A stretch of 64,000 nt of DNA, from assembly GCF_903853455.1 (NCBI RefSeq), contig NZ_CAINTR010000173.1:41308-105307 (forward strand), in the 5' to 3' direction. Below, one piece after another: positions 38,089 to 57,314 of the stretch. Both the position numbers and the translations under genes were made by a program. The notes below the pieces were generated by a model. It made no database searches and was not told where the DNA came from. It saw only the letters and a program-made list of their open reading frames with translations. This DNA comes from an uncultured Magnetospirillum sp. GTDB lineage: Bacteria; Pseudomonadota; Alphaproteobacteria; Rhodospirillales; Magnetospirillaceae. The stretch's first letter is position 1, and each line of letters begins with the position of its first letter.

Positions 38089-38559
38089 TTACTGGCAAAC
38101 CTTGTAGTCGTCGATCACCTCGTTCTGGAGCAGCTTGGCCTGGGCGGAGAAGCCGCCATAGCCGCGCTTGTCCACCTCCTTCAGCAAATCGTCGATGTTG
38201 GCGCAAAACCCCTGGGTGCGGGGAAGGTTGCGGGCATAGGTCACCAGCCGTCCGTCGGCGTGGTTGATCTTGTACTGCCAATCATCGGGGAATTCGCGGC
38301 TCCAGGCCTTCTTGCGCCGGTCGACGGCCGACTTGAACTTGGTTCCGTTGGCGGCCTCGAACTTCTGCCATATGGCGTTCGACCCCTTGAGGTACTGCCC
38401 GTCGCAACGCTGCGACGCCTCGCGCAGATAGATGCCGTGGCGGACTTCACGCTCGGCGCTGATCTCGGGCGCCGAAAAGCAGTGTTTCGGCTTGGCCGCC
38501 GCCGGGCTGGGCGACAACACGGCGAAGGCTAGGAGGAGGATCGGGACTGAGCGGCGCAT
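38089..38559 (-). CDS. Secreted hypothetical protein
   Basis: Signal peptide MRRSVPILLLAFAVLSPSPAAAKPKHC, mature domain with paired cysteines. Confidence 0.65.
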   Translation of the reverse strand: MRRSVPILLLAFAVLSPSPAAAKPKHCFSAPEISAEREVRHGIYLREASQRCDGQYLKGSNAIWQKFEAANGTKFKSAVDRRKKAWSREFPDDWQYKINHADGRLVTYARNLPRTQGFCANIDDLLKEVDKRGYGGFSAQAKLLQNEVIDDYKVCQ

Positions 38560-39190
38560 GCGGACTCCGGCTTGGCGGCGGTGGTGCCGCCATTATGCCG
38601 CGCCGCCTTGCGCGCCGCCAGTACGCGCCATCCCAACAGCGCCGCCAGGATGGCGGCATGGATCATGGGCTCGGTCAGGTCCTTCTTGACCATCATCCAG
38701 TGATGGGTCACCCCCAGCGGCCCGATGAGGTAGACCAGCCGATGCAGGTTCCGCCAGCGCCGCCCCCCGAGGCGGCGGACCATGGCGTTGGTGGAGGTCA
38801 CCGCCAGCGGCAGCAGCAACACCACCGCCGCCATGCCGATGGTGATGTAGCGGCGCTTGACAATCTCGCGGCCGATAGAGGGCCAGTCGAAGAACTGGTC
38901 AAGGCCGATATACGAACTCAGATGGACCACCACGTAGAAGAAGGCGAACAGCCCCAGCATGCGGCGAAACCGCGCCAGCCCCGGCCAGCCGAATATCTGG
39001 CGCACCGGCGTCACCGCCAGGGCGATCAGCAGGAAGCGCAGCGCCCAGTCGCCGAGAAAGCGCACCGCCGCCTCGATGGGGTTGGCCCCCAGACCGTCGG
39101 TCAGCGCCCGCCCGGCCAACCAAGCCAGCGGCAACAGGCACAGGGCGAACACCACCGGCTTGGCCCAGCGCTGGCGCAGAAGCTTGTCCA

Positions 39191-39191
<1 letters not shown>
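38529..39191 (-). CDS. msrQ: MsrQ heme-binding membrane subunit of MsrPQ
   Basis: Multi-TM, FLGDWALRFLLIALAVTPVRQIFGWPGLARFRRMLGLFAFFYVVVHLSSYIGLD, WRNLHRLVYLIGPLGVTHHWMMVKKD; 1-nt overlap with msrP. Confidence 0.92.
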
Positions 39192-40126
<935 letters not shown>

Positions 40127-43459: not shown

Positions 43460-43622
43460 TTATTGCCCCTCATGCGCCGGGCGGGATGCGTTCGGCATCC
43501 CTTGGCTTTCGCGGCGGCACGCGCAGGCGTGCATCAATACGTTTGCCTGCGAAGCTGGCGGGCCGCGCCGGCCCTTGGCCGCAACTCCGAGCGAATGACA
43601 GGTGTCATTCGCTCGTCGGAAT
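43460..43622. repeat. Dispersed intergenic repeat, copy C, ending in a 28-bp palindrome (43588-43615)
   Basis: ttgcccctcatgcgccgggcgggatgcgttcggcatcccttggctttcgcgg...ggcccttggccgcaactccgagcgaatgacaggtgtcattcgctcg. Confidence 0.7.
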
Positions 43623-44471
43623 AAGTTCCCTTCGTCGCCTCACCGCCCCGATGAAGGCCAGCGCGGTCAGGTTCATCACGAAGGCGTAGACGATGCTGGG
43701 CACCATCATGGCCGGGTTGCCCAGCAGCGTCACCGCCACGAAGATGCCCAGCGCCCCGTTCTGCAAGCCGTTCTCCATCACCACCGCGATGCGGTCGGCC
43801 AGATCCAGCCGGCAGGCGCCGCCCAGCGCCCAGGCCCCCGCCATGGCCAGCAGGTTGAGCGCCAGCGCCGCCGGCACCACGTCGCCGAGATGGTCCATCA
43901 GCGCCTGACGCTGACCGACGAAGGCGCCGACCACGATGGCGGCGAACAGCAGGGTGGCGATGGGCCGCGCAACCCTGCCCGACCGGTCAGCCAACCTTGG
44001 CCAGACGTGCTGGACCGCCAGCCCCAGGGCCAGCGGCACCGTGTCCACCAGGAAAATCCCCAGGATCATCCGCCCCACCGGAATCTCGACTGACCGGTCA
44101 TACCCGGCGAACACCGTCAGCCCGAGATTGACCAGCAGCGGCACGGTCACCGCCGCCGCCAGACTGGTCAGGGCGGTGATGGCGGCGGCCAGGGCGATGC
44201 GGCCGCCGGCCAGATGGGAGAGCAGGGCCGAGGTCACCCCCGCCGGGCAGGCGGCCAGCAGGATCAGGCCGACGGCGAAATCGGACGGAAGCCGCCACAG
44301 GCTCACCACCGCCAGCCCGGCCAGCGGCACCAGCAGCAGCTTGGCCGCCAGTCCCGCCACCAGGGCCTTGGGCTGGCGGAACACCCGCCCGATATCGCCG
44401 GGAGCCATGGTGAGGCCCATGGCGAACATGATGAAGGCCAGCGCCGCCGGCAGCGCCGCCTGAAGGATCAC
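43605..44471 (-). CDS. Bile acid:sodium symporter (BASS)-family transporter
   Basis: FIMFAMGLTMAPGDIGRVFRQPKALV, LLAACPAGVTSALLSHLAGGRIALAAAITALTSL; GTG start overlaps menA-like stop. Confidence 0.85.
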   Translation of the reverse strand: MILQAALPAALAFIMFAMGLTMAPGDIGRVFRQPKALVAGLAAKLLLVPLAGLAVVSLWRLPSDFAVGLILLAACPAGVTSALLSHLAGGRIALAAAITALTSLAAAVTVPLLVNLGLTVFAGYDRSVEIPVGRMILGIFLVDTVPLALGLAVQHVWPRLADRSGRVARPIATLLFAAIVVGAFVGQRQALMDHLGDVVPAALALNLLAMAGAWALGGACRLDLADRIAVVMENGLQNGALGIFVAVTLLGNPAMMVPSIVYAFVMNLTALAFIGAVRRRRELIPTSE

Positions 44472-45418
44472 GAGACCATCACCAACCCCACCGCCAGCAC
44501 CACGGCCAGCAGCAGCTGGAACCGGGCGGTGGCGGCGAGGATGGAGTTGAAGGCCGGTCCGCGCGGCTCGGTGACGAAGCGGCGGAACAGGAACAGCGCC
44601 AACGGCGCCGCCCCCAGGGTCAGGATGCCGCCCGGCGGCCCCCAGGGCGAGGCCAGCAGGGCCATGGATGCCGCCAGCAAGGCGCCGTAGATCAGCTTGC
44701 TGGCCTCGACTCCCGCCTGGATGGCCAGGGTGCGGCGACCGGCAAGGCGGTCGGGCTCCATGTCGCGATAATTGTTGGCCAGCAGCACCGCCGCCGCCAC
44801 CGCGCCGATGGCGACACCGGTCACCACCGCCGCGAAGCTCAGCGTGTTGGTCTGGAGGTAGTAGGTCCCTCCCACCGCGCCGACACCGAAAAAGGCGATG
44901 ACGAACAGCTCGCCCAGCGGCGTATAGGCGATGGGACGCGGACCGCCGGAATAGGCCCAGCCCGCCACCAGCGAGGCCGCCCCCAGCGCCAGGATCGGCC
45001 AGCCGCCCAGATAGGCGAGGTAAAGCCCCACCAGCGCCGCCACGGCGAAGCTGACCAAGGCGGCGTGACGCACCCGCTCGGGCGAGGCCCAACCCAGGGC
45101 GGTGACGCGGGGCGGGCCCTGGCGCATGGGCTGGTCGCCGCCCCGGAGCGCGTCGCTCACATCGTTGAACAGATTGGTGCCGGCCTGGATCGCCAGGGCG
45201 CCGATCAGCGACGCCAACAGCGGCCGGACATCCAGCGACCCGGCATCCTGCCACCCCAAGGTGGTTCCCGCCACCACCGGCGCCACCGAAAGGGTGAGCG
45301 TGCGCGGCCGGATCGCCAGCCACCATAGCCGCCAGCCATCGGGCGGCTGGTCGGCGCGGCTGGCGGTCTGGCTTGCAATCGCCGACGGAGTTTCGGGCAG
45401 ACCGGTGTTCAGCTTCAT
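44468..45418 (-). CDS. menA: MenA-like prenyltransferase (1,4-dihydroxy-2-naphthoate prenyltransferase, UbiA superfamily)
   Basis: WWLAIRPRTLTLSVAPVVAGT, NLFNDVSDALRGGDQPMRQGPPRVTALGWASPERVRHAA, LLANNYRDMEPDRLAGRRTLAI. Confidence 0.85.
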   Translation of the reverse strand: MKLNTGLPETPSAIASQTASRADQPPDGWRLWWLAIRPRTLTLSVAPVVAGTTLGWQDAGSLDVRPLLASLIGALAIQAGTNLFNDVSDALRGGDQPMRQGPPRVTALGWASPERVRHAALVSFAVAALVGLYLAYLGGWPILALGAASLVAGWAYSGGPRPIAYTPLGELFVIAFFGVGAVGGTYYLQTNTLSFAAVVTGVAIGAVAAAVLLANNYRDMEPDRLAGRRTLAIQAGVEASKLIYGALLAASMALLASPWGPPGGILTLGAAPLALFLFRRFVTEPRGPAFNSILAATARFQLLLAVVLAVGLVMVS

Positions 45419-46155
45419 GGCGCGGGCTTGGCTCCTGAATGCAGGCAGGCGATGCCGGCCGAAAGATTGCGCCACTCCACCCGGGCGAAGCCGGCGGCGC
45501 GCATCAGCCCGGCCATCTCGCGCTGGTCGGGGAAGCGGCGGATGGATTCCACCAGATAGGAATAGGCCGAGGGCTGCCGCGCGATCCAGGCGCCCAGCCG
45601 GGGGATCACCGCGAAGGAATAAGCGTCGTAGAACGGCCGGATCACCGCCCAGGGGCGCGAGAATTCCAGGCAGAGGAACCGTCCGCCCGGCTTGAGCACC
45701 CGTAGGATCTCGGCGAGACCGGCCTCCGGGCTGGTGGCGTTCCGCAGGCCGAAGGCGATGGTGACCAGATCCACCGAAGCGTCGGCGAAGGGCATGGCCT
45801 CGGCCTTGCCTTCCACGAATTCGATGCCTGGGAATTCGAGGTTGGGTGACCGGGCCTTGCCCACCGCCATCATCTCCACCGACGGATCGCACACCACCAC
45901 CCGGCGGCCCTCGCCGGCCAGCAGCCGCGCCACGTCGCCGGTGCCGCCGGCCAGATCGACCACCAGTTCCCCCGGTTTCAGCATGGCCGCCTTGGCCATT
46001 CCCCGCTTCCACAGGCGATGGATGCCGAAGCTCATGACGTCGTTCATCAGGTCGTAGCGCGGCGCCACCGCGTTGAACACGGCGCGGATGCGACGCTCGC
46101 GCTCGTCCTCGGACACCTGCTCGTAGCCGAAGCTTTGCGACAGCGACGGGCTCAC
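45415..46155 (-). CDS. ubiE: UbiE/MenG-type quinone C-methyltransferase
   Basis: FNAVAPRYDLMNDVMSFGIHRLWKR, VVDLAGGTGDVARLL, AFGLRNATSPEAGLAEILRVLKPGGRFLCLEFSRP; GTG start overlapping nosY stop. Confidence 0.93.
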   Translation of the reverse strand: MSPSLSQSFGYEQVSEDERERRIRAVFNAVAPRYDLMNDVMSFGIHRLWKRGMAKAAMLKPGELVVDLAGGTGDVARLLAGEGRRVVVCDPSVEMMAVGKARSPNLEFPGIEFVEGKAEAMPFADASVDLVTIAFGLRNATSPEAGLAEILRVLKPGGRFLCLEFSRPWAVIRPFYDAYSFAVIPRLGAWIARQPSAYSYLVESIRRFPDQREMAGLMRAAGFARVEWRNLSAGIACLHSGAKPAP

Positions 46156-46979
46156 GGCAGGTCGCCGCGGCGGAACAGGTGGTAGCCGATCCCGGCGCAG
46201 ACGGTGCCCAGCGCCACCGGGTAAACCATGGCGAAGATCAGATAGCCGGTCCGCCCCAGCCCGTCGAGGATGACATAGGCCGCCGGTCCCAGCACCAGCA
46301 TCTGCGGATCGAACAGCAAGATGGCGGCGGTGCGGAAGCTTTGCAACGGATTGGCCACCGCGATGCCGACGATCACCTCCAGCGGCAGCTGCTCGCGGAT
46401 CATCACCCCCAGCAGGATGAGGTCGAGGAACAGCAGCAGCCCCAGCCAGATCAGGAAGGCGCCGGTCTGCGCCACGTCGGGCGACCGCGCCACGGTGGAG
46501 ATCAGCATGCCGATACCGAGGAAGGCCCAGGCCAACGCCACCAGCAGGCCGGTATAGAGCAGGAACAGGCTCCAATCGACGCCGATCTGGCGGATGGTGG
46601 CATAGGCCGCCGCCAGGGCCATGGCGCCGAACACCGGCAGGAACACCACCACGAAGCGCCCGATCATCTTGCCCCAGAACCAGGCGTAAAGCGGCACCGG
46701 CAGCGACAGCATGTATTCGAACACGCCGGCGTCGCGGTCCCCCGCCACCGAGCGCACGGTGGTGATCAGGATGAAGATGGGCAGGATGGCGACGCAAAGC
46801 TGGATATAGGTCACCAGCAGGCGCGACAGGCCGGTGAAGCCCAGGATGCGCGATTCGGTGAGGCCGAACACGAACAGCAGCACCACGATGCCGCCGAACA
46901 CCAGCGAGTAGAACAGGAACCAGCGGGCCCGCAGCGACTCGGCCATGTCGAGCCGGGCGGTCAGCCAAAGCGCGTTCAT
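46152..46979 (-). CDS. nosY: NosY-type ABC permease
   Basis: Six-TM permease, VAGDRDAGVFEYMLSLPVPLYAWFWGKMIGRF, downstream of nosF/nosL. Confidence 0.88.
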   Translation of the reverse strand: MNALWLTARLDMAESLRARWFLFYSLVFGGIVVLLFVFGLTESRILGFTGLSRLLVTYIQLCVAILPIFILITTVRSVAGDRDAGVFEYMLSLPVPLYAWFWGKMIGRFVVVFLPVFGAMALAAAYATIRQIGVDWSLFLLYTGLLVALAWAFLGIGMLISTVARSPDVAQTGAFLIWLGLLLFLDLILLGVMIREQLPLEVIVGIAVANPLQSFRTAAILLFDPQMLVLGPAAYVILDGLGRTGYLIFAMVYPVALGTVCAGIGYHLFRRGDLP

Positions 46980-47461
46980 CCCTGGCCTCCGCTCTGGCCG
47001 CTGGGCTCGCAGCGGCTGGTGGAGCCCTTGGCCAGGATGGCGACCTTGAGGGCGGCGAAGTCCAGCGCGCCGGCACGCGGCGCCGCCACCGCCCCGAAGC
47101 CGTGGGCCATGGGGGTGCGCTGGCCGCCCACGTAGAAGGCCTTGAACCCGTCCATCCACTGACCGGTCTCCAGCCCGCCCACCCAGAATTCGGTGGCGGG
47201 ATCGGAGGCCCAGCCCTGCTTGACCAGGAACAGGACGGCGTCGCCGAGATCGTCGAACTTATAGGCCTTGTGACCGGGACCGCCGCGCAGTTGGGCGGCG
47301 AAATGGGGATCGTCGACGATCATGCCGCAATAGTCGCAGGTGTCGCGGCCCCACTTGATCTCGCCGGGACCGGTGGTCTTCTGGCCGCAGCCCGAGGCCG
47401 CCAGGGCCAGCCCCGGAATCAGGGCGAGGACATGGCGGCGGCTGATCCGGTGATCGCACAT
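46976..47461 (-). CDS. nosL: NosL copper-binding lipoprotein
   Basis: Lipobox LAASGCG, DTCDYCGMIVDDPHFAAQL, AYKFDDLGDAV. Confidence 0.92.
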   Translation of the reverse strand: MCDHRISRRHVLALIPGLALAASGCGQKTTGPGEIKWGRDTCDYCGMIVDDPHFAAQLRGGPGHKAYKFDDLGDAVLFLVKQGWASDPATEFWVGGLETGQWMDGFKAFYVGGQRTPMAHGFGAVAAPRAGALDFAALKVAILAKGSTSRCEPSGQSGGQG

Positions 47462-47470
47462 AAGCCTCTC

Positions 47471-48316
47471 CTATTTCATCTCGATGCCGGCGACCAGGCC
47501 GGCATAGCGGGCGAGAACGCCGAGAAAGCGCAGCCGGTCGGGGCCGTTGACCACGCCGCGCCAGCCGATGCCGCCATCATCGGAGGCAAACCCCCACTCC
47601 GCCATGGCCTTGGCGAAGGCGGCCTCGGTCCGGGTCAGGCGCACGGTGCAGTCCAGCCGCGCATTCATGTCCACGTCGTCGGCCACCTTGTCGTCCAGCG
47701 CGATCCGGCCCTGATCCATCTCCACCACCCGGTTGACCAGGGCCGCCACCTCGTCGAGGCGGTGGCTGGTGATCAGCATGACGGCGCGCTCCTTGCGCTC
47801 GTGCAACTGGTGGAAAAAGATGTGGCGCGCCTCGGGGTCCAGATTGGCCGCCGGCTCGTCCATGATCAGGATGTCGGCGTCGCGCCCGAGCGCGATGCCG
47901 ATCAGCATCTTCTGCTTCATGCCGCCCGACAGCTTGACGAAGGGCAGCCGCCGCACCTGGTCCCAGTCCAGGCCCAATTCCCGCACCATGGCGACGATGC
48001 GCCCCGGGTCCGAGCCGCAGACGGCGGCGGCGAAATTCACCAGTTCGCCCACCGGCATCTTCAGGGGCGGCGGAATCTGCGGCACGAAGCCCACCCGCGA
48101 CAGCACCGCCTTGCGGTTGGACTTGGGGTCGAGGCCGCCCACCGTCACCGCGCCCTCGTGCAGGTACTCGCCCAGCAGGCAGCGGATCAGGGTGGTCTTG
48201 CCGGCACCGTTGGAGCCGACCAGAGCCACCCGCTCGCCGGTGGCGATGGACAGGCTGACCCCGTCGAGCACCTTGTGGCGCTTGAAGGTCTTGGAGACGT
48301 TGTCGAAGGAAATCAT
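47471..48316 (-). CDS. nosF: NosF-type ABC ATPase
   Basis: VGSNGAGKTTLIRCLLG, LSGGMKQKMLIGIALGRDADILIMDEPAANLDPEARH. Confidence 0.92.
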   Translation of the reverse strand: MISFDNVSKTFKRHKVLDGVSLSIATGERVALVGSNGAGKTTLIRCLLGEYLHEGAVTVGGLDPKSNRKAVLSRVGFVPQIPPPLKMPVGELVNFAAAVCGSDPGRIVAMVRELGLDWDQVRRLPFVKLSGGMKQKMLIGIALGRDADILIMDEPAANLDPEARHIFFHQLHERKERAVMLITSHRLDEVAALVNRVVEMDQGRIALDDKVADDVDMNARLDCTVRLTRTEAAFAKAMAEWGFASDDGGIGWRGVVNGPDRLRFLGVLARYAGLVAGIEMK

Positions 48317-48330
48317 GCGCGGTTCCGTAC

Positions 48331-49293
48331 CTACAACAACTTGTTCAGGCCCTTGACGTCGTACCGGAGCGAACCGGTCGGACAGGCGTCGATGCACAGG
48401 CCACAGCGGGTGCAGTCGGCGCCGATGGCCACTTCCACATCCTCGGCATAGGTCTTCTTGGTGCAGTCCAGCACATGCGGCACCAAGCATACCTTGCGGC
48501 AATCGCCCTCGTGCAGGCAATTTTCCAGATTGTACTTCACCCGCACCGGCGACACCGCGCCGACCAGACCGTAGGTCAGGCCGATGGGGCAGATGTAGCG
48601 GCACCACATGCGGCGGATGAACACCACCTCGTAGGCCAGCAGGCCCACCACCCAGATCATGGCCAGCCCCGGCCCGTAGATCAGGGCGCGCGACACGATG
48701 CCGGTGGGCGAGATCGACTCGAACACGGTATAGCCGCTGACCGCCGCCAGCAGGGCGAACACCACATACAGCACGGTGCGGGTGCCACGATGCAGGGGGT
48801 AATCCACCACCATGCGCCGCGCCGCCAGGACCAGGTGAAGCTTCTCGGCGATCTCGGCCAGCAGGTGATAGGGACAGACCCACGAGCAGAAGGTCCGGCC
48901 GCCGAACAGCCACCACATCAGCAGCACCGTGCCGGTGCCGATCACCAGATTGAGCAGGATCACCTTATAGGCCAGCATCACCTGCAAGGCCGAATTGAGA
49001 TCGGCCATGTGGAAGCCGACCACCCGCGACGCGGTCAACGCCCCTTCCACCAACTGGACGTCGAAGCGGTAGGACAGCACGAACACCAGATTGACGGCGA
49101 TCAGGGTGGCCCATCGGATGTTGCGCCACTTGTTGCTTTTGTACTCGGCATGGGCCGCCTTGATCTCGCGGGCGCGCTCCGGCCCCTTGATCAGGCGCTT
49201 GGCCTCGTGCATGGCCGCCGCCTCGGGGGTGGTGGTCTTGGGCCGCTCGGGCGCGGCGCCCAGCATGACCTTGAGGGAGGTGAGAAGGCTCAT
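48331..49293 (-). CDS. nosH: NosH/NapH-like polyferredoxin membrane protein
   Basis: TFCSWVCPYHLLAEIAEKL, RRMWCRYICPIGLTYGLVG, two 4Fe-4S motifs (IGADCTRCGLCIDACPTGSL). Confidence 0.88.
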   Translation of the reverse strand: MSLLTSLKVMLGAAPERPKTTTPEAAAMHEAKRLIKGPERAREIKAAHAEYKSNKWRNIRWATLIAVNLVFVLSYRFDVQLVEGALTASRVVGFHMADLNSALQVMLAYKVILLNLVIGTGTVLLMWWLFGGRTFCSWVCPYHLLAEIAEKLHLVLAARRMVVDYPLHRGTRTVLYVVFALLAAVSGYTVFESISPTGIVSRALIYGPGLAMIWVVGLLAYEVVFIRRMWCRYICPIGLTYGLVGAVSPVRVKYNLENCLHEGDCRKVCLVPHVLDCTKKTYAEDVEVAIGADCTRCGLCIDACPTGSLRYDVKGLNKLL

Positions 49294-50015
49294 CACGCAT
49301 CTCCCCACTTGCGCCGGATGTCGACGACGATGGAGGCGGCCTCGGTGGGGCAGATCATCTCGCACATGCCGCAGCCGACGCAGGCCTCGTGCACCACCGG
49401 GGTTCGCCGCTTGTCGGCGGGATCGGACGACATGGGCTCCAGGGTGATGGCGCCCTGGATGGGGCATTCGCGCACGCACAGATCGCAGATGGCCAAGTCG
49501 TAGGGGTACTCGGCCAACTTGACCGGCTTCCAGCGGTCGATCTCGGCATAGCGGTGCACCCCCTTGAACGGCGCCGGCCGCGCCGGCCCCTTATGCCCCT
49601 CGCCCTTGCGGGCCAGACAGGCGCCGGGGCGGTCGAGCCGCGCCAGCCCCATATGGACCTGCTCCTTCTTGACGATGGCATGGTTCAGCGCCCCGGTCGG
49701 GCAGGCCAGCACGCATTGCACCGCGTCGCAGGAAAAATCGCAGGCCTGCGCGCGCGCCGGAATGAAGGGCACCCCGACGCCGAAGCCCTCGTCGAGGTCG
49801 CCCAGTTCGATGGCCTTGACCGGGCAAACCTGGACGCATTGGCCGCATTTGATGCAGGCCGACAGGAAGTCGCGCTCGTCCAGGGCGCCGGGCGGCCGCA
49901 AACGCTGCGTCCATTTGCGCAGCACCGGGAAAAAGCCGAACAGCGAGGCGCCGATGATGGCGCCGCCCATGGTCAGCGACCGCATGACCTGGCGGCGTGT
50001 CTTGGAGTTAGTCAT
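49293..50015 (-). CDS. nosG: NosG/NapG-like 4Fe-4S ferredoxin protein
   Basis: CIKCGQCVQVCPVKAI, CDFSCDAVQCVLACPTGAL, CDLCVRECPIQGAI, CVGCGMCEMICPTEA; N-terminal membrane/export segment. Confidence 0.88.
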   Translation of the reverse strand: MTNSKTRRQVMRSLTMGGAIIGASLFGFFPVLRKWTQRLRPPGALDERDFLSACIKCGQCVQVCPVKAIELGDLDEGFGVGVPFIPARAQACDFSCDAVQCVLACPTGALNHAIVKKEQVHMGLARLDRPGACLARKGEGHKGPARPAPFKGVHRYAEIDRWKPVKLAEYPYDLAICDLCVRECPIQGAITLEPMSSDPADKRRTPVVHEACVGCGMCEMICPTEAASIVVDIRRKWGDA

Positions 50016-51292
50016 AACTTCGGCTCCAGAGAGGATCCCGCCTTGAAGGTTTTGTCGCTGCCCAGATGGGGATGGGGGTCTTCCAGCAGCAGGGTCGGCT
50101 CGCTGAACGGCGCCAGCCGGTCGAGGAAATCGAGCACTTCCAGCAACGGCGTACCCTTGAAGAAGCGCGTGTTGGGAACATCCATCCACACCTGCCCGGC
50201 ATAGCCGAACAGACGATGGGGCTTGTCACCGATGCCGTCGCCGTTGCGGTCGAAGCCCTGGTAGTCCTCCCAGCGATTGCCGTCCCACACATTGCGCTTG
50301 GCGCTGCCGCCGCCGTAGATGGCCACTTCGGTGATGTTGCCGGTGAACAGGTTGCCGGTGAAGATGCTGTCCTTCCAGTCGTTGATGAAGGACACGCCGA
50401 TATCGTTGAAGGCGATGCGGTTGCCGCGGATGCGGTTCTTGCTGTCCGGCTCGTAGGGGGCGACGTCGATGGCGATGCCCGAGGCGCAGTACATCAGGTC
50501 GTTGTTCTCGATCAGGATGTCGCTGCTCTCCTTGAGGGCCAGGCAGACCCCCACCGCGCCGTTGGCCTTGGCGATGTAGTTGTTCCGGATGACGTCGCCG
50601 CTGTCATACATCATGGTGATGCCGGTCATGTTGTCGATGAACTGGTTGTCCTCGGCGACATTGTCGGAGGCCTGCATGAGGTGCAGGCCGTAGCGGCCGC
50701 CGAACTCGCGGTTGCCCTTGAACAGGTTGCCGTTGGCGTACCAGAACACCACGTCGCGCCCTTGGCGGAAGTCGTTGTCCTCGATGCGGTTGTTGTGGGA
50801 GTACCACAGCTTGATGCCGTCGCCGCGCCGCTGCATGGTCAGAGGCTTGCCGACGAAGCGGTTGCGGCGGACCACGTTGCGGTTGGACTGCTCCAGGGCG
50901 AAGCCGAACAGAGTGTCCTCGACGACGTTGTCCTCGATGACGTTGTCGTTGCCCCGCACCTGGATGCCGGCATCCTGATTGGGATGATCGATTCCGCTGT
51001 TGACGATGCGCAGGTTGCGGATGGTGGCGCCGTCGGTCTGGACCCACAGCACCGAGTCGGTGCCCTCGCCGTCCAGCGTCACCTTGCCCTTGCCGTCGAG
51101 GACCACCGGCTTGGTGATCCTGAGATGGGCGCGGTAGTGGCCGGGCGGCGGCACGATTTCCTGACCCGGCTGGGCCATATCGATCAGGGCCTGCAGCAGC
51201 GAGGAATCCAGCAGCGGCTCCTCGGCCGAAGGCGCGGCGGCGGCGGCGACCGCCGCCAGACCAACGGAAACGAGGATGGCCATGAACCGCAT
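50012..51292 (-). CDS. nosD: NosD periplasmic copper-binding/beta-helix protein
   Basis: Right-handed beta-helix repeats (VIEDNVVEDTLFGFALEQSNRNVVRRNRF...), LWYSHNNRIEDNDFRQGRDVVFWYANGN. Confidence 0.92.
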   Translation of the reverse strand: MRFMAILVSVGLAAVAAAAAPSAEEPLLDSSLLQALIDMAQPGQEIVPPPGHYRAHLRITKPVVLDGKGKVTLDGEGTDSVLWVQTDGATIRNLRIVNSGIDHPNQDAGIQVRGNDNVIEDNVVEDTLFGFALEQSNRNVVRRNRFVGKPLTMQRRGDGIKLWYSHNNRIEDNDFRQGRDVVFWYANGNLFKGNREFGGRYGLHLMQASDNVAEDNQFIDNMTGITMMYDSGDVIRNNYIAKANGAVGVCLALKESSDILIENNDLMYCASGIAIDVAPYEPDSKNRIRGNRIAFNDIGVSFINDWKDSIFTGNLFTGNITEVAIYGGGSAKRNVWDGNRWEDYQGFDRNGDGIGDKPHRLFGYAGQVWMDVPNTRFFKGTPLLEVLDFLDRLAPFSEPTLLLEDPHPHLGSDKTFKAGSSLEPKL

Positions 51293-51301
51293 GGATGCAC
51301 C

Positions 51302-51958
51302 CTAGTCCTTGAGGGCCTTGCGTTGCAACAACAGGGCAAGGGTCAGACACAAGGCGCCCAGACAGAGCAGGCCGAAGCCGTAATGGGGATAGGAATAGGT
51401 GGTGAATTGCGCCACCTGCCCGTCACCGAACACGGTGGGCATGAAGGGTTTGACCGAAAACGCCGCCCAGGAGCGCAGATTATGGCCGAACCACCACAGC
51501 CAGGCGGAATAATCGATGACGAAGGCCACCGGAATGACCATGCCCGACAGCGGCAGCACCCACCAGAACGGACCGGAATAGACCAGGAAAGCCGCCAGCA
51601 TGACGCCGACCAGACTGAACAGATACGGCGCCGCCTTGATCTCCAGCGCCGCGCCCTTCTCGATGGGCTCCATGCCGATGAAGTGGTTGATCACGTTCAT
51701 CTCGTGGACGCAATCCAGGCCGCCCTCCTCGTCACCCCAGGTGTCGGACTTCTTCATCTGGCTGGTGCAGCCGTTGAACACGCCGTTGACGTGGAAGTGG
51801 ATGCGGATGCCGTCGGGGAAGGTCGCGGCCGGGTAGTTGGGCGCCTTCAGCGCCACCCACCAGATCGGCGACATATAGGCGCCACCGATCAACAACGCCG
51901 CGAGCACGGTGAGGATTCGCACGAGCGCCGGTTTGCTCCTGCTGCTTTTCTTGACCAT
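51302..51958 (-). CDS. nosB: NosB-like transmembrane protein of clade II nos clusters
   Basis: About five TM segments, VALKAPNYPAATFPDGIRIHFHVNGVFNGC...NVINHFIGMEPIEKGA; position between cytochromes and nosD. Confidence 0.78.
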   Translation of the reverse strand: MVKKSSRSKPALVRILTVLAALLIGGAYMSPIWWVALKAPNYPAATFPDGIRIHFHVNGVFNGCTSQMKKSDTWGDEEGGLDCVHEMNVINHFIGMEPIEKGAALEIKAAPYLFSLVGVMLAAFLVYSGPFWWVLPLSGMVIPVAFVIDYSAWLWWFGHNLRSWAAFSVKPFMPTVFGDGQVAQFTTYSYPHYGFGLLCLGALCLTLALLLQRKALKD

Positions 51959-52047: not shown

Positions 52048-52797
52048 CTACTGGAAGTCGGGATTCTTCCAGCCCTTGGGCGCGACCTTGTCCTTGGGCG
52101 GAACCAGCCGGGACACGTAGTCGAGCACCGCATGGGTCTCGCGATCTGTGAAGTCGTGGATCTGCTTGACCATGTCCGGGTTGGCGTTGCGCCGCTTGCC
52201 GGCCTTGATCTCGTTGAACTGCCGCAGCAGATAGGCGTAGTGCTGGGCCTCGATGCGCGGGAAGAACTTGTCGTTGTCGCCCTGGCCGGTGGTCCCATGG
52301 CACTTGACGCAATTGTCGGCATAGAGCTTCTTGCCCAGCTCCTGATCCTTGCCGTCGCCCTTGCCGTTTTCCGGGCTCATCTTCAGGGTCTGGATATAAC
52401 CGGCGACATCGGCCACCGCCTGCGGCCCGCCGATCTGGCTGGGCAGGGCGAAGGGATACATGGTTGGATTCTCGCGGTTGAGGGCGCGAATGTCGGCCAG
52501 CTGCTTGATGATGACCTTGTAGTGCTGGCCGGCCAGCTGCGGGAAGGTTCCGTCCACCAAGCCCCAGCCTTCCGGCTGATGGCAGGCGGAGCAGACCTCG
52601 AAGACCTCCTTGCCGTTCTTGACGTCCGGCTTGAGGTTAAGGGCCTCGTCCTCCTCGCCGCCGCCGGCATTCCACTGGTAGCCGGCCTCACCCACCGACT
52701 TGCCCTTCTGGGGAGCTTCGGCGGCATACACCGCCCCGCCCGTCACCAAAGCCGAAATCGCGGCCGCCACGGCCAGGGAGTGCTTGAACTTCAACAT
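52048..52797 (-). CDS. Diheme c-type cytochrome of nos cluster
   Basis: Signal peptide; two CxxCH motifs (CSACHQ, CVKCHG). Confidence 0.9.
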   Translation of the reverse strand: MLKFKHSLAVAAAISALVTGGAVYAAEAPQKGKSVGEAGYQWNAGGGEEDEALNLKPDVKNGKEVFEVCSACHQPEGWGLVDGTFPQLAGQHYKVIIKQLADIRALNRENPTMYPFALPSQIGGPQAVADVAGYIQTLKMSPENGKGDGKDQELGKKLYADNCVKCHGTTGQGDNDKFFPRIEAQHYAYLLRQFNEIKAGKRRNANPDMVKQIHDFTDRETHAVLDYVSRLVPPKDKVAPKGWKNPDFQ

Positions 52798-52885: not shown

Positions 52886-53497
52886 TCACTTGACTGTGGA
52901 CAAGTATTCGGCAATGGCGGTGATCTCGTCGTCGGAAACCAGATGCATCACCGGCTGCATGGCCAGGGCCTTGCCGTTGGTGCGCGCGCCGGTCTTGATG
53001 TCCTTGGTCTGGGCCAGGATATAGGCCTTGTCCTGTCCGCCGATGACCGGATAGCCGGGCAGCGGCTTCTTGCCTTCCTTGCCATGGCAGGCGACGCAGG
53101 TCTTGGTCAGGAACAGGGTCTTGCCGGGAGTGGCCGGCGCGGTGGAGGCGGCGGTGGGCGCTTCCCGCAGCGAGAACAGGTAGTCGGCCAAGGCCTTCAT
53201 CTCGTCGTCGGTCAACTCGGCCACGATCGGCTTCATGACTTCGACGGTCTGACCGTTGGTCCGCTTGCCGGACTTGATGTCCATCATCTGATTGAGCGCG
53301 TATTCGGCGCTTTGACCGGCCAGCTTGGGGAAGCCCTCCTGGAGGGGAGTCTTGGCGTCCTCGCCGTGGCAGGCGACACAGCCCTTGTCGGTGAACAGCG
53401 CCTTGCCGTCGGCGGCCAGCGCCGGGGCCAGGGTCATGACGCCGAAGGCAGCCGCCAGGGCCATGACGGGAAGCTGCCGCTTGACGCTCTTGAGCAT
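52886..53497 (-). CDS. Diheme c-type cytochrome of nos cluster
   Basis: Signal peptide MLKSVKRQLPVMALAAAFGVMTLAPALAA; two CVACHG motifs. Confidence 0.9.
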   Translation of the reverse strand: MLKSVKRQLPVMALAAAFGVMTLAPALAADGKALFTDKGCVACHGEDAKTPLQEGFPKLAGQSAEYALNQMMDIKSGKRTNGQTVEVMKPIVAELTDDEMKALADYLFSLREAPTAASTAPATPGKTLFLTKTCVACHGKEGKKPLPGYPVIGGQDKAYILAQTKDIKTGARTNGKALAMQPVMHLVSDDEITAIAEYLSTVK

Positions 53498-53608
53498 GTC
53501 TTCATCCTTCTTGAGGGAATTGGAAATCCGGGAGTGGGTCACCCCACCCCCGGTTCCAGGTCGTAGCACCAGGGCGGCTTGCGCCGCCCTGGCTTTGGTC
53601 AAGTCGTT

Positions 53609-55951
53609 TTACTTCGCGGCCGGAGCCGGAGCCGCGGCCGGAGCGGCCTCGACCTTCTTGGCACCGTTCTGCTCCAGGAAGGTCTTGGCGCGCAGACCGA
53701 TATCGGCGGCCTTGACCTGATACTGGAACCACTGCTCGGCCCACAGGAAGGCGGCGTTGTAGTCGCCCTTGGCGGCGAACTCTTCCGACTTTTTCTTGTT
53801 CTGATCGGCGTAGCCCAACTGCTCGGTGGCATCCTCGACCATGGCGACCACGGGCGGGAAGTCCTTGTAGTTGACGCTGGTGATGTAGCCGACGACGCTG
53901 TTGATGATGGCCTGGGTATCCACATTGGCCTTCACGCGGGCGTCATAATCGGTCTTGCCGTAGATTTGGCCTTCCTTGCCCTTGGCGCCGGTGGCCTTGT
54001 AGCTGGCCGGCTGGACCAGGAGATAGCCTTCCATTTCCAGATGCAGCGCCGAGCAGAACTCGGTGCAGTAGTAGGGATAGACGCCGGCCTTGCTGACCTT
54101 GATGGTCGCCGAGGCGGTCTTGCCCGGCTCGACCGACAGGTTGACGTTGTGCTTGGAGACGGCGAAACCATGGGTCTCGTCCTCGGCACGCTCCAGATTG
54201 GTGAGGTGGAAGGTGACTTCGTCGCCCTCGTTGGCCTCGACGATCTCGGGCGTGATGTGCGAGCGGATCAGGGTGCCGAACACCTCGACCTTGCCCGGCT
54301 TCTTGTCGGTATGCTCGGCGCCCGGACGCACCGCGAACGGCGACTTCTGCTCGGTACGGGAATCGGTGCCGAACGGATAGCGGACGTTGGGATGCAGCTT
54401 GCCCATTTCGATGGACACCGCGTAGTGGGGCTCGCCCAGCGGCAGCGGCATGTCGTAGAGCAACTGCATCTTGTCGCCGCTGATGTCGATCAGCTGGTGA
54501 TTCTGCGGATGCAGCGGACCCACTTGGGCGAACCGGTCGATGGCCAGCTTGTTCAGGGCGATCAGGTAGTGCCCCTTGGGCTTGGCGGTGTCGCCTTCCA
54601 TGGCCATCAGATGGCCGATGTTGTAGTGCACCGAAATTTTGTCGAGCACCTTGCCTTCGCAGTAATCCCACTTGGCGACCATGGAATCGACATAGAGCGA
54701 GGTGTAGGCGATGCAGGGCTTGGAGTCGTACTGGGTGTGAAGCGGGCCGAGACCCAGAGCGGTCTGGTTGTGGGCCGCCACGTCCAGGGCGATGATCGGA
54801 ATGCCGTAATCGTCCTTGCCGCTGAAGTTCTTGGCGGCGATGGCGGCCTGGATCTTGGCGACGTCGTAGACGGTGGTGTGGCTGTCCAGCTTGCCGGACA
54901 CGATGACCATCTTGCCGTCGGGGGTGACGTCGGCGCCATGGGGGCTCTTGGGCTCGGGGATGAGCACCAGGATGCCTTCCTTGATGGAGACGTCGAGCGG
55001 CAGGACGTTGTGGCCGTTGATCTTCTTGGCCTTGCCGGCCGCGACCAGCTCGGCGGCCTTCTTCCAGTTGATCACGTGCAGGAAGTCGCTGTCCTTGGCG
55101 GAACAGCCGGCTTCGAAGGGCGGACGGCCGCGCTCGATGCCACCCACATAGCGCTCGGTGCAGAACGAGTTGACGAAGGCCAAGCCATCGGACGGACCCT
55201 TGCCGAAATCGGCCAGATCCTGGCTGTAGGGAGGCAGTTCGAGCGAGAACGAGTTCTCGGGCTCGATACGGCCCTTCTCGCGGTTGAACTTCCAGAAGGT
55301 CGCCGCGCCGCGATACTTGTCGTTGAACTGCTCCACCGGAGCGAACTCGCCACCCAGCGGCGCCGGGTATTGGGAGGCCTCGATGATGTAGTCGGTGTTG
55401 GGGCTGACGAAGGCGCCGCCATGCTCGGAGGCCATGATCGGGTTCTGGACGATCTGCTTGGTCTCGAAGTCGCGCAGATCGACGACGGCGATGCGAGGCG
55501 TGTTCTTGTCGTTGATGAACAGCCACTGGCCATCGGACTCGCCGTTGGTCTCGGACAGCGCCGGGTGATGGGTGTCGCCCCACAGGACCGATTCGGACTG
55601 GCCCTTGACCTCGGAGCCTTCCTTCAGCACCCGCTTCGACTCGTCGTCGAAGCCGTAACCCTGCCAGGGCTCGGGGGTGAAGACGCCGATATACTTCAGG
55701 ATGCGCATGGACGGCACGCCGTAGACGATCACCTGACCGCTCTGGCCGCCGGAGCTGAACACCATGAACTCGTCGATCTTGCCGGTCGGATTGTAGGTCT
55801 TGGCGGCGGCCAGAACGTCGTTCTCGGTCAGGCCGCGACGCTTCATCACATCTTGCAGCGATTCGGCCGACGCGGCTCCTGCCACCAGGGCGCCAAAGCT
55901 CACCGTGGCGAGCAGTGTCGCCAGCTTGCGGGTCTTCGTCATATTCCCCAC
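53609..55951 (-). CDS. nosZ: Nitrous oxide reductase, clade II (Sec signal peptide)
   Basis: Signal without twin Arg (MTKTRKLATLLATVSFGALVAGAASA), WGDTHHPALSETNGESDGQWLFINDKNTPRIAV, CuA site YYCTEFCSALHLEMEGYLLV. Start may be 55942. Confidence 0.95.
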   Translation of the reverse strand: MGNMTKTRKLATLLATVSFGALVAGAASAESLQDVMKRRGLTENDVLAAAKTYNPTGKIDEFMVFSSGGQSGQVIVYGVPSMRILKYIGVFTPEPWQGYGFDDESKRVLKEGSEVKGQSESVLWGDTHHPALSETNGESDGQWLFINDKNTPRIAVVDLRDFETKQIVQNPIMASEHGGAFVSPNTDYIIEASQYPAPLGGEFAPVEQFNDKYRGAATFWKFNREKGRIEPENSFSLELPPYSQDLADFGKGPSDGLAFVNSFCTERYVGGIERGRPPFEAGCSAKDSDFLHVINWKKAAELVAAGKAKKINGHNVLPLDVSIKEGILVLIPEPKSPHGADVTPDGKMVIVSGKLDSHTTVYDVAKIQAAIAAKNFSGKDDYGIPIIALDVAAHNQTALGLGPLHTQYDSKPCIAYTSLYVDSMVAKWDYCEGKVLDKISVHYNIGHLMAMEGDTAKPKGHYLIALNKLAIDRFAQVGPLHPQNHQLIDISGDKMQLLYDMPLPLGEPHYAVSIEMGKLHPNVRYPFGTDSRTEQKSPFAVRPGAEHTDKKPGKVEVFGTLIRSHITPEIVEANEGDEVTFHLTNLERAEDETHGFAVSKHNVNLSVEPGKTASATIKVSKAGVYPYYCTEFCSALHLEMEGYLLVQPASYKATGAKGKEGQIYGKTDYDARVKANVDTQAIINSVVGYITSVNYKDFPPVVAMVEDATEQLGYADQNKKKSEEFAAKGDYNAAFLWAEQWFQYQVKAADIGLRAKTFLEQNGAKKVEAAPAAAPAPAAK

Positions 55952-56154: not shown

Positions 56155-56736
56155 ATGCGCCAGACCCTGATCGCGGCCCTCGCCGTCCTCGCCGCCTGGT
56201 GGACGGGGCCGGCCGGCGCCGACGACGCCGACCGCGCCGTGGTCGGCCGCTTCCTGCTGGTGGACATGACCGGGCGGCCGGTGACCGACGAGACCTATGC
56301 CGGCAAGATCCGGCTGGTGGTGTTCGGCTACACCTATTGTCCCGACATCTGCCCCACCGTCCTCAACACCCTGTCGGTGGCGCTGGAGCATCTGGGGGCC
56401 GACCGCGGCAAGGTCGTGACCCTGTTCGTCAGCGTCGATCCCGAGCGCGACACCCCCGCCCATCTCAAGGACTATCTGGTGTCCTTCCCGGAGGTCACTG
56501 GACTGACCGGCAGCGCCGCCCAGGTCGCGGCGGCGGCCTACAACTTCAAGGCCCGCTACGAGAAGCAGCCGGCGGCGGACGGCGACCCCGCCGCCTACAG
56601 CATCGACCACACCGCCTCCATCTACATCATGGACCGCGCCGGCAACTTCCTGGCGCGCATGCCGCACGCCTCGGCGCCCGACCGGGTGGCGGAGCGGGTG
56701 CGGTCTTATCTGTATCCGAAGAGAGACGACCAATGA
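56155..56736 (+). CDS. SCO1/SenC/PrrC-family copper chaperone-like protein
   Basis: VVFGYTYCPDICPTVLNTLSVAL (CxxxC), FVSVDPERDTPAHLKDYLVSF, IDHTASIYIMDRAGNFL. Confidence 0.92.
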   Translation: MRQTLIAALAVLAAWWTGPAGADDADRAVVGRFLLVDMTGRPVTDETYAGKIRLVVFGYTYCPDICPTVLNTLSVALEHLGADRGKVVTLFVSVDPERDTPAHLKDYLVSFPEVTGLTGSAAQVAAAAYNFKARYEKQPAADGDPAAYSIDHTASIYIMDRAGNFLARMPHASAPDRVAERVRSYLYPKRDDQ

Positions 56737-57314
56737 ACATGCCCCGCCGCGCCTTCCTCGCCGCCTTGGCGGCGCTCGGCCTCCCCCTCCCGGCGAGGGC
56801 CAAGGTCGCCCAGGGACTGGTGATCCACGACGCACCCAAGACGCTGCCGCCGCTGGACATCCGCGACGGCGACGGCAACCCCGCCGGCCTGGAAGCCTTG
56901 CGCGGTCAGGCGGTCCTGCTGAATCTGTGGGCCAGCTGGTGCATGCCCTGCGTCGCCGAACTGCCGGCCCTCGACCGCCTCAAGCCCAAGGCTGCCGCCA
57001 AGGGGATCGCGGTGGTGGCGCTGTCGCTGGATCGCGGCGGCAAGATCGCGGTGGTCAACACCTATGCCCGCCTCGGCATCTCCGCCCTGGCCATCCGCAC
57101 CGACGATGCCCGCGCCGCCGCCGAGAAGCTGAACGCCTCGGTGTTGCCCATCAGCCTGCTGCTGGACGCCCAGGGCCGCGAGGTCGCCCGCTATGTCGGC
57201 GGCGCCGACTGGGACGGCCCCCAGGCCGCCGCCATGCTCGACGCCCTGGCCGCCGGCCGGCCGCTGACGCCGGACATGGCCCCGCCGCTGGCCCGCGTGA
57301 CCATCGCGCCCTAA
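56733..57314 (+). CDS. TlpA/ResA-like thioredoxin-domain protein
   Basis: NLWASWCMPCVAELPALDRL, VLPISLLLDAQGREVARYVG; ATGA overlap with SCO1 gene. Confidence 0.9.
   Translation: MNMPRRAFLAALAALGLPLPARAKVAQGLVIHDAPKTLPPLDIRDGDGNPAGLEALRGQAVLLNLWASWCMPCVAELPALDRLKPKAAAKGIAVVALSLDRGGKIAVVNTYARLGISALAIRTDDARAAAEKLNASVLPISLLLDAQGREVARYVGGADWDGPQAAAMLDALAAGRPLTPDMAPPLARVTIAP

Follow-up and report, generated by a model that had tools for sequence, protein, structure and literature searches.

The 64,000-nucleotide stretch of DNA analysed here (the window) comes from an uncultured Magnetospirillum sp., whose magnetospirillum-like draft genome comprises 5.18 Mb in 223 contigs and is rated 100% complete. 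On its minus strand, from position 55942 to 43605, lies a nos cluster for respiration of the greenhouse gas nitrous oxide (N2O) in which nosZ, nosC1, nosC2, nosB, nosD, nosG, nosH, nosF, nosL, nosY, ubiE, menA and the gene of a BASS-family carrier follow one another in the same orientation (Table 1). The TIGR04246 score of NosZ (853 bits against a cut-off of 625), together with a NosH above the NapH cut-off, places the system in clade II, that of the Sec-dependent NosZ; NosG, which lies below the NapG cut-off, is simply related to NapG. The nosB label follows from the position of the gene in clade II clusters, and NosL gave no family match above threshold in the profile searches.

A preliminary description of this DNA had proposed that the genes from nosL onwards are coupled by 4-nucleotide overlaps, and all four overlaps can be read directly in the sequence: nosL (TGA 46978-46976) with nosY (ATG 46979), nosY (TGA ending at 46152) with the ubiE-like gene (GTG 46155), the ubiE-like gene (TGA ending at 45415) with the menA-like gene (ATG 45418), and the menA-like gene (TGA ending at 44468) with the BASS gene (GTG 44471). 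The conservation of the nosY-ubiE-menA order, which it had recommended checking, is borne out by relatives, since among 39 menA-BASS loci the overlap is kept between ubiE and menA in 31, between menA and BASS in 30 and between nosY and ubiE in 22. Because it is conserved over these loci, the coupling is not due to chance. Terminator-like sites between nosZ and BASS are no more numerous than expected by chance.

Table 1. Features of the nos cluster and its surroundings (positions in the window; ORF, open reading frame).
Feature	Position	Strand	Basis
nosZ, Sec-dependent (clade II) nitrous-oxide reductase	53609..55942	-	TIGR04246 853 bits, cut-off 625
nosC1, c-type cytochrome, CxxCH motifs	52886..53542	-	ORF; position after nosZ kept in relatives
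nosC2, c-type cytochrome, CxxCH motifs	52048..52797	-	ORF; conserved position
nosB (named by position), membrane protein	51302..51958	-	ORF; conserved position
nosD, periplasmic maturation protein	50012..51292	-	ORF; conserved position
nosG, NapG-type ferredoxin subunit, quinol dehydrogenase	49293..49985	-	best NCBIfam match NapG 141 bits, below cut-off 269
nosH, NapH-type quinol dehydrogenase membrane subunit	48331..49293	-	TIGR02163 225.6 bits, cut-off 213
nosF, ABC transporter ATPase	47471..48316	-	ORF; conserved position
nosL, lipoprotein-type copper chaperone	46976..47461	-	ORF; position
nosY, ABC-2 permease	46152..46979	-	PF12679 63.6 bits
nos-type ubiE/menG, demethylmenaquinone C-methyltransferase paralogue	45415..46155	-	TIGR01934 262.6 bits
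menA, predicted 1,4-dihydroxy-2-naphthoate (DHNA) polyprenyltransferase	44468..45418	-	TIGR00751 170.7 bits; NF004751 264.9 bits
MenA first Asp-rich motif NLFNDVSDALRGGD	45134..45175	-	sequence reading
MenA second Asp motif NNYRDMEPD	44750..44776	-	sequence reading
BASS-family (SLC10-like) carrier, proposed DHNA importer	43605..44471	-	PF01758 114 bits; structure model
BASS motif ENGLQN	43758..43775	-	aligns with E-x-G-x-Q-N stretch of ASBT_NM
SCO1-like protein, divergent from nosZ	56155..56736	+	ORF; family read by eye
TlpA-like thioredoxin, overlaps SCO1-like gene	56733..57314	+	ORF; family read by eye

Judged by its sequence, the prenyltransferase of the cluster is a genuine MenA, as the preliminary description had held in preference to UbiA; the peptide that it cited lies in this protein. 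The enzyme passes the cut-offs of TIGR00751 (102.15 bits) and NF004751 (264 bits) and carries both Asp-rich motifs of the UbiA superfamily in their MenA form (NLFNDVSD...GGD and NNYRDMEPD), with N82, N85, D86, D89 and D95 of the first motif and N215, N216, R218, D219 and D223 of the second invariant in our alignment A1. Its nearest solved relative is UBIAD1 (8djk), a MenA-type enzyme and not a UbiA, and its closest MenA relatives among named records belong to Paramagnetospirillum, Phaeospirillum and Magnetospirillum. It is 67-70% identical to the MenA of the Phaeospirillum-type genomes G418, G419 and G425, which possess menD and menB. Its identification as UbiA was rejected on the MenA family score and on the presence of a separate UbiA on contig C144.

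Prenyltransferase paralogues elsewhere in the genome comprise UbiA, two heme O synthases and one MenA-like protein. The last of these, a member of the UbiA family on contig C182 of this genome (G000; L223 13567-14421), scores 101 bits, just below the 102.15 of TIGR00751, and similar proteins are found in many members of the genus. In the closed genome G422 (4,967,148 bases; C1:3324701-3325644, L043) menA is split over two frames within an otherwise unchanged nos-ubiE-menA-BASS order, which may be a real change or a sequencing error. The nos UbiE passes the TIGR01934 subfamily cut-off (158.35 bits) and that of NF001244 (217.7 against 216), and falls short of the equivalog NF001242 (278 against 351), which a second, housekeeping UbiE on contig C142 passes with 357.

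The preliminary description had looked to the genome for the rest of a menaquinone route. Profile searches found no menD (best score 66 bits, cut-off 244) and no menB (best score 150 bits, cut-off 343) in it, and the best menB match reads by eye as an ordinary enoyl-CoA hydratase. MqnA/MqnD of the futalosine route (PF02621) had no match in this genome and one weak match in 55 genomes of the family. The same searches recover genuine menD (>380 bits) and menB (>419 bits) in relatives, genuine menD overall exceeding 330 bits, and a complete menaquinone route in the genome was rejected on their outcome. Lacking menD, menB and MqnA/MqnD, the genome therefore cannot form DHNA, the substrate of MenA, by either known route. 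Two findings, taken together, had been named beforehand as speaking against a naphthoquinone function; one of them, the absence of DHNA-forming genes, is what we observe, and the other, a prenyltransferase outside the MenA clade, is not, as the MenA is a MenA.

Two relatives within the family carry the DHNA-forming genes next to nos. Genome G400 (L095) has nosZ-C1-C2-B-D-G-H-F-L-Y-ubiE-menA-menF-menD-menB on one strand, with menE divergent, and genome G385 (L096, L097) has nosZ...nosY-menF-menD-menB, with ubiE and menE on the opposite strand and menC-menA on a separate contig; the menE and menC labels denote best matches, with scores under their cut-offs. As these two genomes demonstrate, menaquinone genes can be a functional component of a clade II nos cluster. 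The genome studied here, like most of the family, lacks the men genes and has BASS at their site. A BASS orthologue is present in 28 genomes of the family, every one adjoining menA or nos; in G395 and G396 (L098, L134, L099) BASS precedes nosZ and menA directly follows nosY. Within the family, menB was detected in 1 of the 28 genomes with BASS (G414) against 9 of 16 with MenA and no BASS (Fisher p = 1.3e-4), and MenA in 30 of 31 genomes with clade II nosZ against 14 of 24 others (p = 5e-4). Nearly all members of the family have the tail genes intact and in conserved synteny.

We then scanned 85,462 species genomes with the MenA alignment and kept 80 loci from Alpha-, Beta- and Gammaproteobacteria, leaving out about 480 further MenA relatives. 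The ubiE-menA-BASS arrangement occurs in metagenome-assembled genomes (MAGs) of Hyphomicrobiales, in one MAG each of Magnetovibrio and Sulfuritalea, in Denitromonas and other Rhodocyclales-type bacteria and in Rhodoferax-like ones, and men genes stand beside menA in Sedimenticola, vent-tubeworm symbionts, Sulfuricella and others, several of these loci also adjoining nos. BASS and men genes were found together in cis in none of the 80 loci. When 50 of these genomes were searched for menD, it was present in 0 of 15 with BASS in cis and in 29 of 35 without (Fisher p = 2.4e-8, uncorrected for relatedness). The placement of menA-BASS varies: it may follow nosY, diverge from nosZ (L167, L172, L209) or converge on nosY (L196), and in Denitromonas (L190, L219) the genes preceding the module are those of a cytochrome and a SCO1-like protein instead of nosY.

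By the profiles that it matches, the BASS carrier belongs to PF01758 (domain cut-off 24.3 bits) but to no named subfamily, as it remains below the cut-offs of TIGR00841 (142.8 against 326.3) and of PanS, the pantoate/ketopantoate transporter (NF047939, 89 against 400). Its AlphaFold model (predicted local distance difference test score, pLDDT, 87) has as its best solved match in Foldseek the fold of ASBT_NM with pantoate (8oyg; template modelling score, TM, 0.87; 23% identity). In an alignment of 24 menA-linked copies (A2), E233, G235 and N238 are invariant and Q237 is conserved in more than 90%; the corresponding E-x-G-x-Q-N stretch of ASBT_NM is what we take to be its Na+ site. Whether BASS shares the function of the operon or is just its end had been left open in the preliminary description. 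A shared function is favoured, with BASS standing where relatives have DHNA genes, and a mere operon end is unlikely, since the menA-BASS pairing is conserved outside the lineage.

The operon very probably serves a naphthoquinone pool, given that the nos clusters of relatives include menF-D-B and menE. The core of the earlier suggestion, a naphthoquinone pool that feeds N2O reduction, is supported by the identity of MenA and by these relatives; the expected remainder of the route is absent from the genome. With only MenA and UbiE left, no known precursor other than DHNA would be usable; intermediates further up the pathway, o-succinylbenzoate for example, would require MenE and MenB. We consider it probable that the last three genes form a module that salvages the precursor of a menaquinone pool dedicated to nos. 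BASS would take up DHNA, the anion of an aromatic acid, which other organisms release; MenA would couple it, with loss of CO2, to the polyprenyl chain of the cell, giving demethylmenaquinone, which the nos-type UbiE would methylate to menaquinone; and the NapGH-like NosGH would oxidise the menaquinol and pass the electrons via NosC1/C2 to NosZ. The computed support consists of gene order and coupling, the identity of MenA, the lack of menD, menB and MqnA/MqnD, the replacement of BASS by menF-D-B in relatives, the exclusion between BASS and menD, and the ASBT-like fold. What we infer is the transport of DHNA by BASS, with import deduced from genomics, the delivery of the product to NosGH and the insufficiency of ubiquinol.

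Several observations weigh against DHNA salvage. The substrate of BASS cannot be read from its sequence, and the MqnA/MqnD search covered the genomes of the family. Genome G414 has a complete menFDBCE locus in addition to a nos-linked menA-BASS module (L115, L126), the sole genome seen with both; G415 has a lone menD above the family cut-off (L116 8972-10759) and no menB; and G409 and G410 have MenA with neither nos nor BASS adjoining. Both BASS in cis and menD are lacking in fourteen rows of the MenA tree; G412 among them has menA-BASS elsewhere (L119), and L203, L213 and L215 lie among menD-bearing relatives, which leaves G043, G388, G392, G401, G409, G410, G170, L178, L192 and L195. Switches of the trait are few on the MenA tree, with 8 changes for BASS and 8 independent pairs in all, 2 of them well supported; shared ancestry therefore explains part of the association between BASS and menD, and a sign test on the switches, of low power with 2 to 8 pairs, is not significant. 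MAGs make up many of the genomes, and no completeness values were reported for the 50 searched for menD.

These observations give some room to other explanations. DHNA could be made by an unidentified or very divergent route, so that menaquinone from the operon serves N2O respiration and BASS moves pantoate or another organic acid. The searches cover known families only, MenA persists in about ten genomes that lack both BASS and menD, and the best solved structural match of the carrier is the pantoate-bound ASBT_NM; but the standard menF-D-B-C-E genes serve relatives from the same family, which makes a second route unparsimonious, and the regular replacement of men genes by BASS would be left unexplained, and we regard this as unlikely. 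It appears quite unlikely that MenA and UbiE act on another imported aromatic acid and provide NosGH with a different quinone, given the high identity of MenA to that of the Phaeospirillum-type genomes with menD and menB, from a genus reported to contain Q-9 and MK-9 (PMC7074854), and given that the equivalent MenA of G400 is supplied by a regular set of DHNA genes within the same cluster. In favour of a different quinone, MenA barely reaches its strictest cut-off, the nos UbiE stays under its equivalog cut-off, and the substrate is not readable from sequence.

The tail genes might also be remnants or passengers of a nos cluster acquired by horizontal movement, functionless in this lineage, as the split MenA of the G422 assembly and the MenA of G409 and G410 would allow; the near-general integrity and synteny of the tail, its 4-nucleotide coupling and the almost constant company of MenA and clade II nosZ make this very unlikely. 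Export of surplus DHNA or of a quinone by-product through BASS, instead of import, would fit the growth inhibition caused by high levels of DHNA (PMC10746273), but genomes with BASS, which do not make DHNA by the classical route, would have nothing to export, and DHNA makers lack BASS, so that export is highly improbable.

Other arrangements were seen around menA. In G392 (L102 9448-9975) a COQ10/START-like protein directly precedes menA and a TlpA-like thioredoxin follows it, and in Azospirillum sp. TSO22-1 (L178 6062-6541) a COQ10/START-like protein lies between nosY and menA, again with a TlpA-like thioredoxin after menA. These COQ10/START-like proteins, read by eye, have 159-175 amino acids, and the two loci, from which both BASS and ubiE are absent, represent a third accessory arrangement. 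Genome G170 (L111 / L024), of about 0.9 Mb and rated 100% complete, encodes a MenA (44% identical) and has no menD, menB or clade II nosZ. Elsewhere in the window, at 38529-40126, a gene pair read by eye resembles msrQ/msrP, the periplasmic methionine sulfoxide reductase.

With somewhat less assurance, we lean towards a wider proposal, namely that the N2O-reductase operon contains a DHNA importer and that clade II N2O reduction depends on a community-made precursor in magnetospirilla, Denitromonas, some Rhodocyclales, Rhodoferax-like bacteria and Hyphomicrobiales; such bacteria may import DHNA from their neighbours as a prerequisite for N2O reduction. The open-access literature searched contained neither a description of ubiE-menA-BASS within nos clusters nor a DHNA transporter identified by name. 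As far as it shows, the DHNA salvage module in nos operons is a new proposal, and the DHNA importer is apparently the first of its kind. If true, N2O respiration would depend on a vitamin-like precursor from neighbours, whose DHNA supply would limit the sink strength of one widespread group of clade II reducers, and a carrier for DHNA would have a name. It would also explain the spread of clade II nos into ubiquinone-based Proteobacteria, as many such clusters come with DHNA genes or else with a candidate carrier for DHNA, and it predicts that N2O reduction by these strains in the laboratory relies on yeast extract or co-culture. Among cultivated strains, Magnetospirillum gryphiswaldense MSR-1 and Denitromonas isolates belong to groups in which BASS occurs.

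The cluster can be compared with several known systems. Wolinella succinogenes, which synthesises its own menaquinone, has a clade II nos cluster that likewise combines a Sec-dependent NosZ with NosB, D, G, C1, C2, H, F, Y and L in one operon; in contrast, the cluster described here has a ubiE-menA-BASS tail and belongs to an alphaproteobacterium that lacks a DHNA route. Hein et al. 2017 (listed in PMC10653820) report that Wolinella requires the NosG-C1-C2-H module for its N2O respiration. With the classical menaquinone pathway (menF-D-H-C-E-B-A-G) the cluster shares the MenA and UbiE/MenG steps, and the nos clusters of G400 and G385 also menF-D-B-E, whereas the pre-DHNA steps tested (menD, menB) are absent from the genome studied here. 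The BASS/SLC10 carriers ASBT_NM (8oyg), ASBT_Yf and PanS resemble ours in fold and in the E-x-G-x-Q-N stretch, but the low identity in the structural match and the scores under the TIGR00841 and PanS cut-offs set it apart as a menA-coupled subgroup. A physiological parallel is Lactiplantibacillus plantarum, a DHNA auxotroph that retains menA, lacks the DHNA-forming genes and uses DHNA from its neighbours (PMC10746273), as we propose here; that organism is Gram-positive, the process served is extracellular electron transfer and no dedicated carrier was found named in that report, whereas the nos cluster adds a link to N2O and a candidate carrier.

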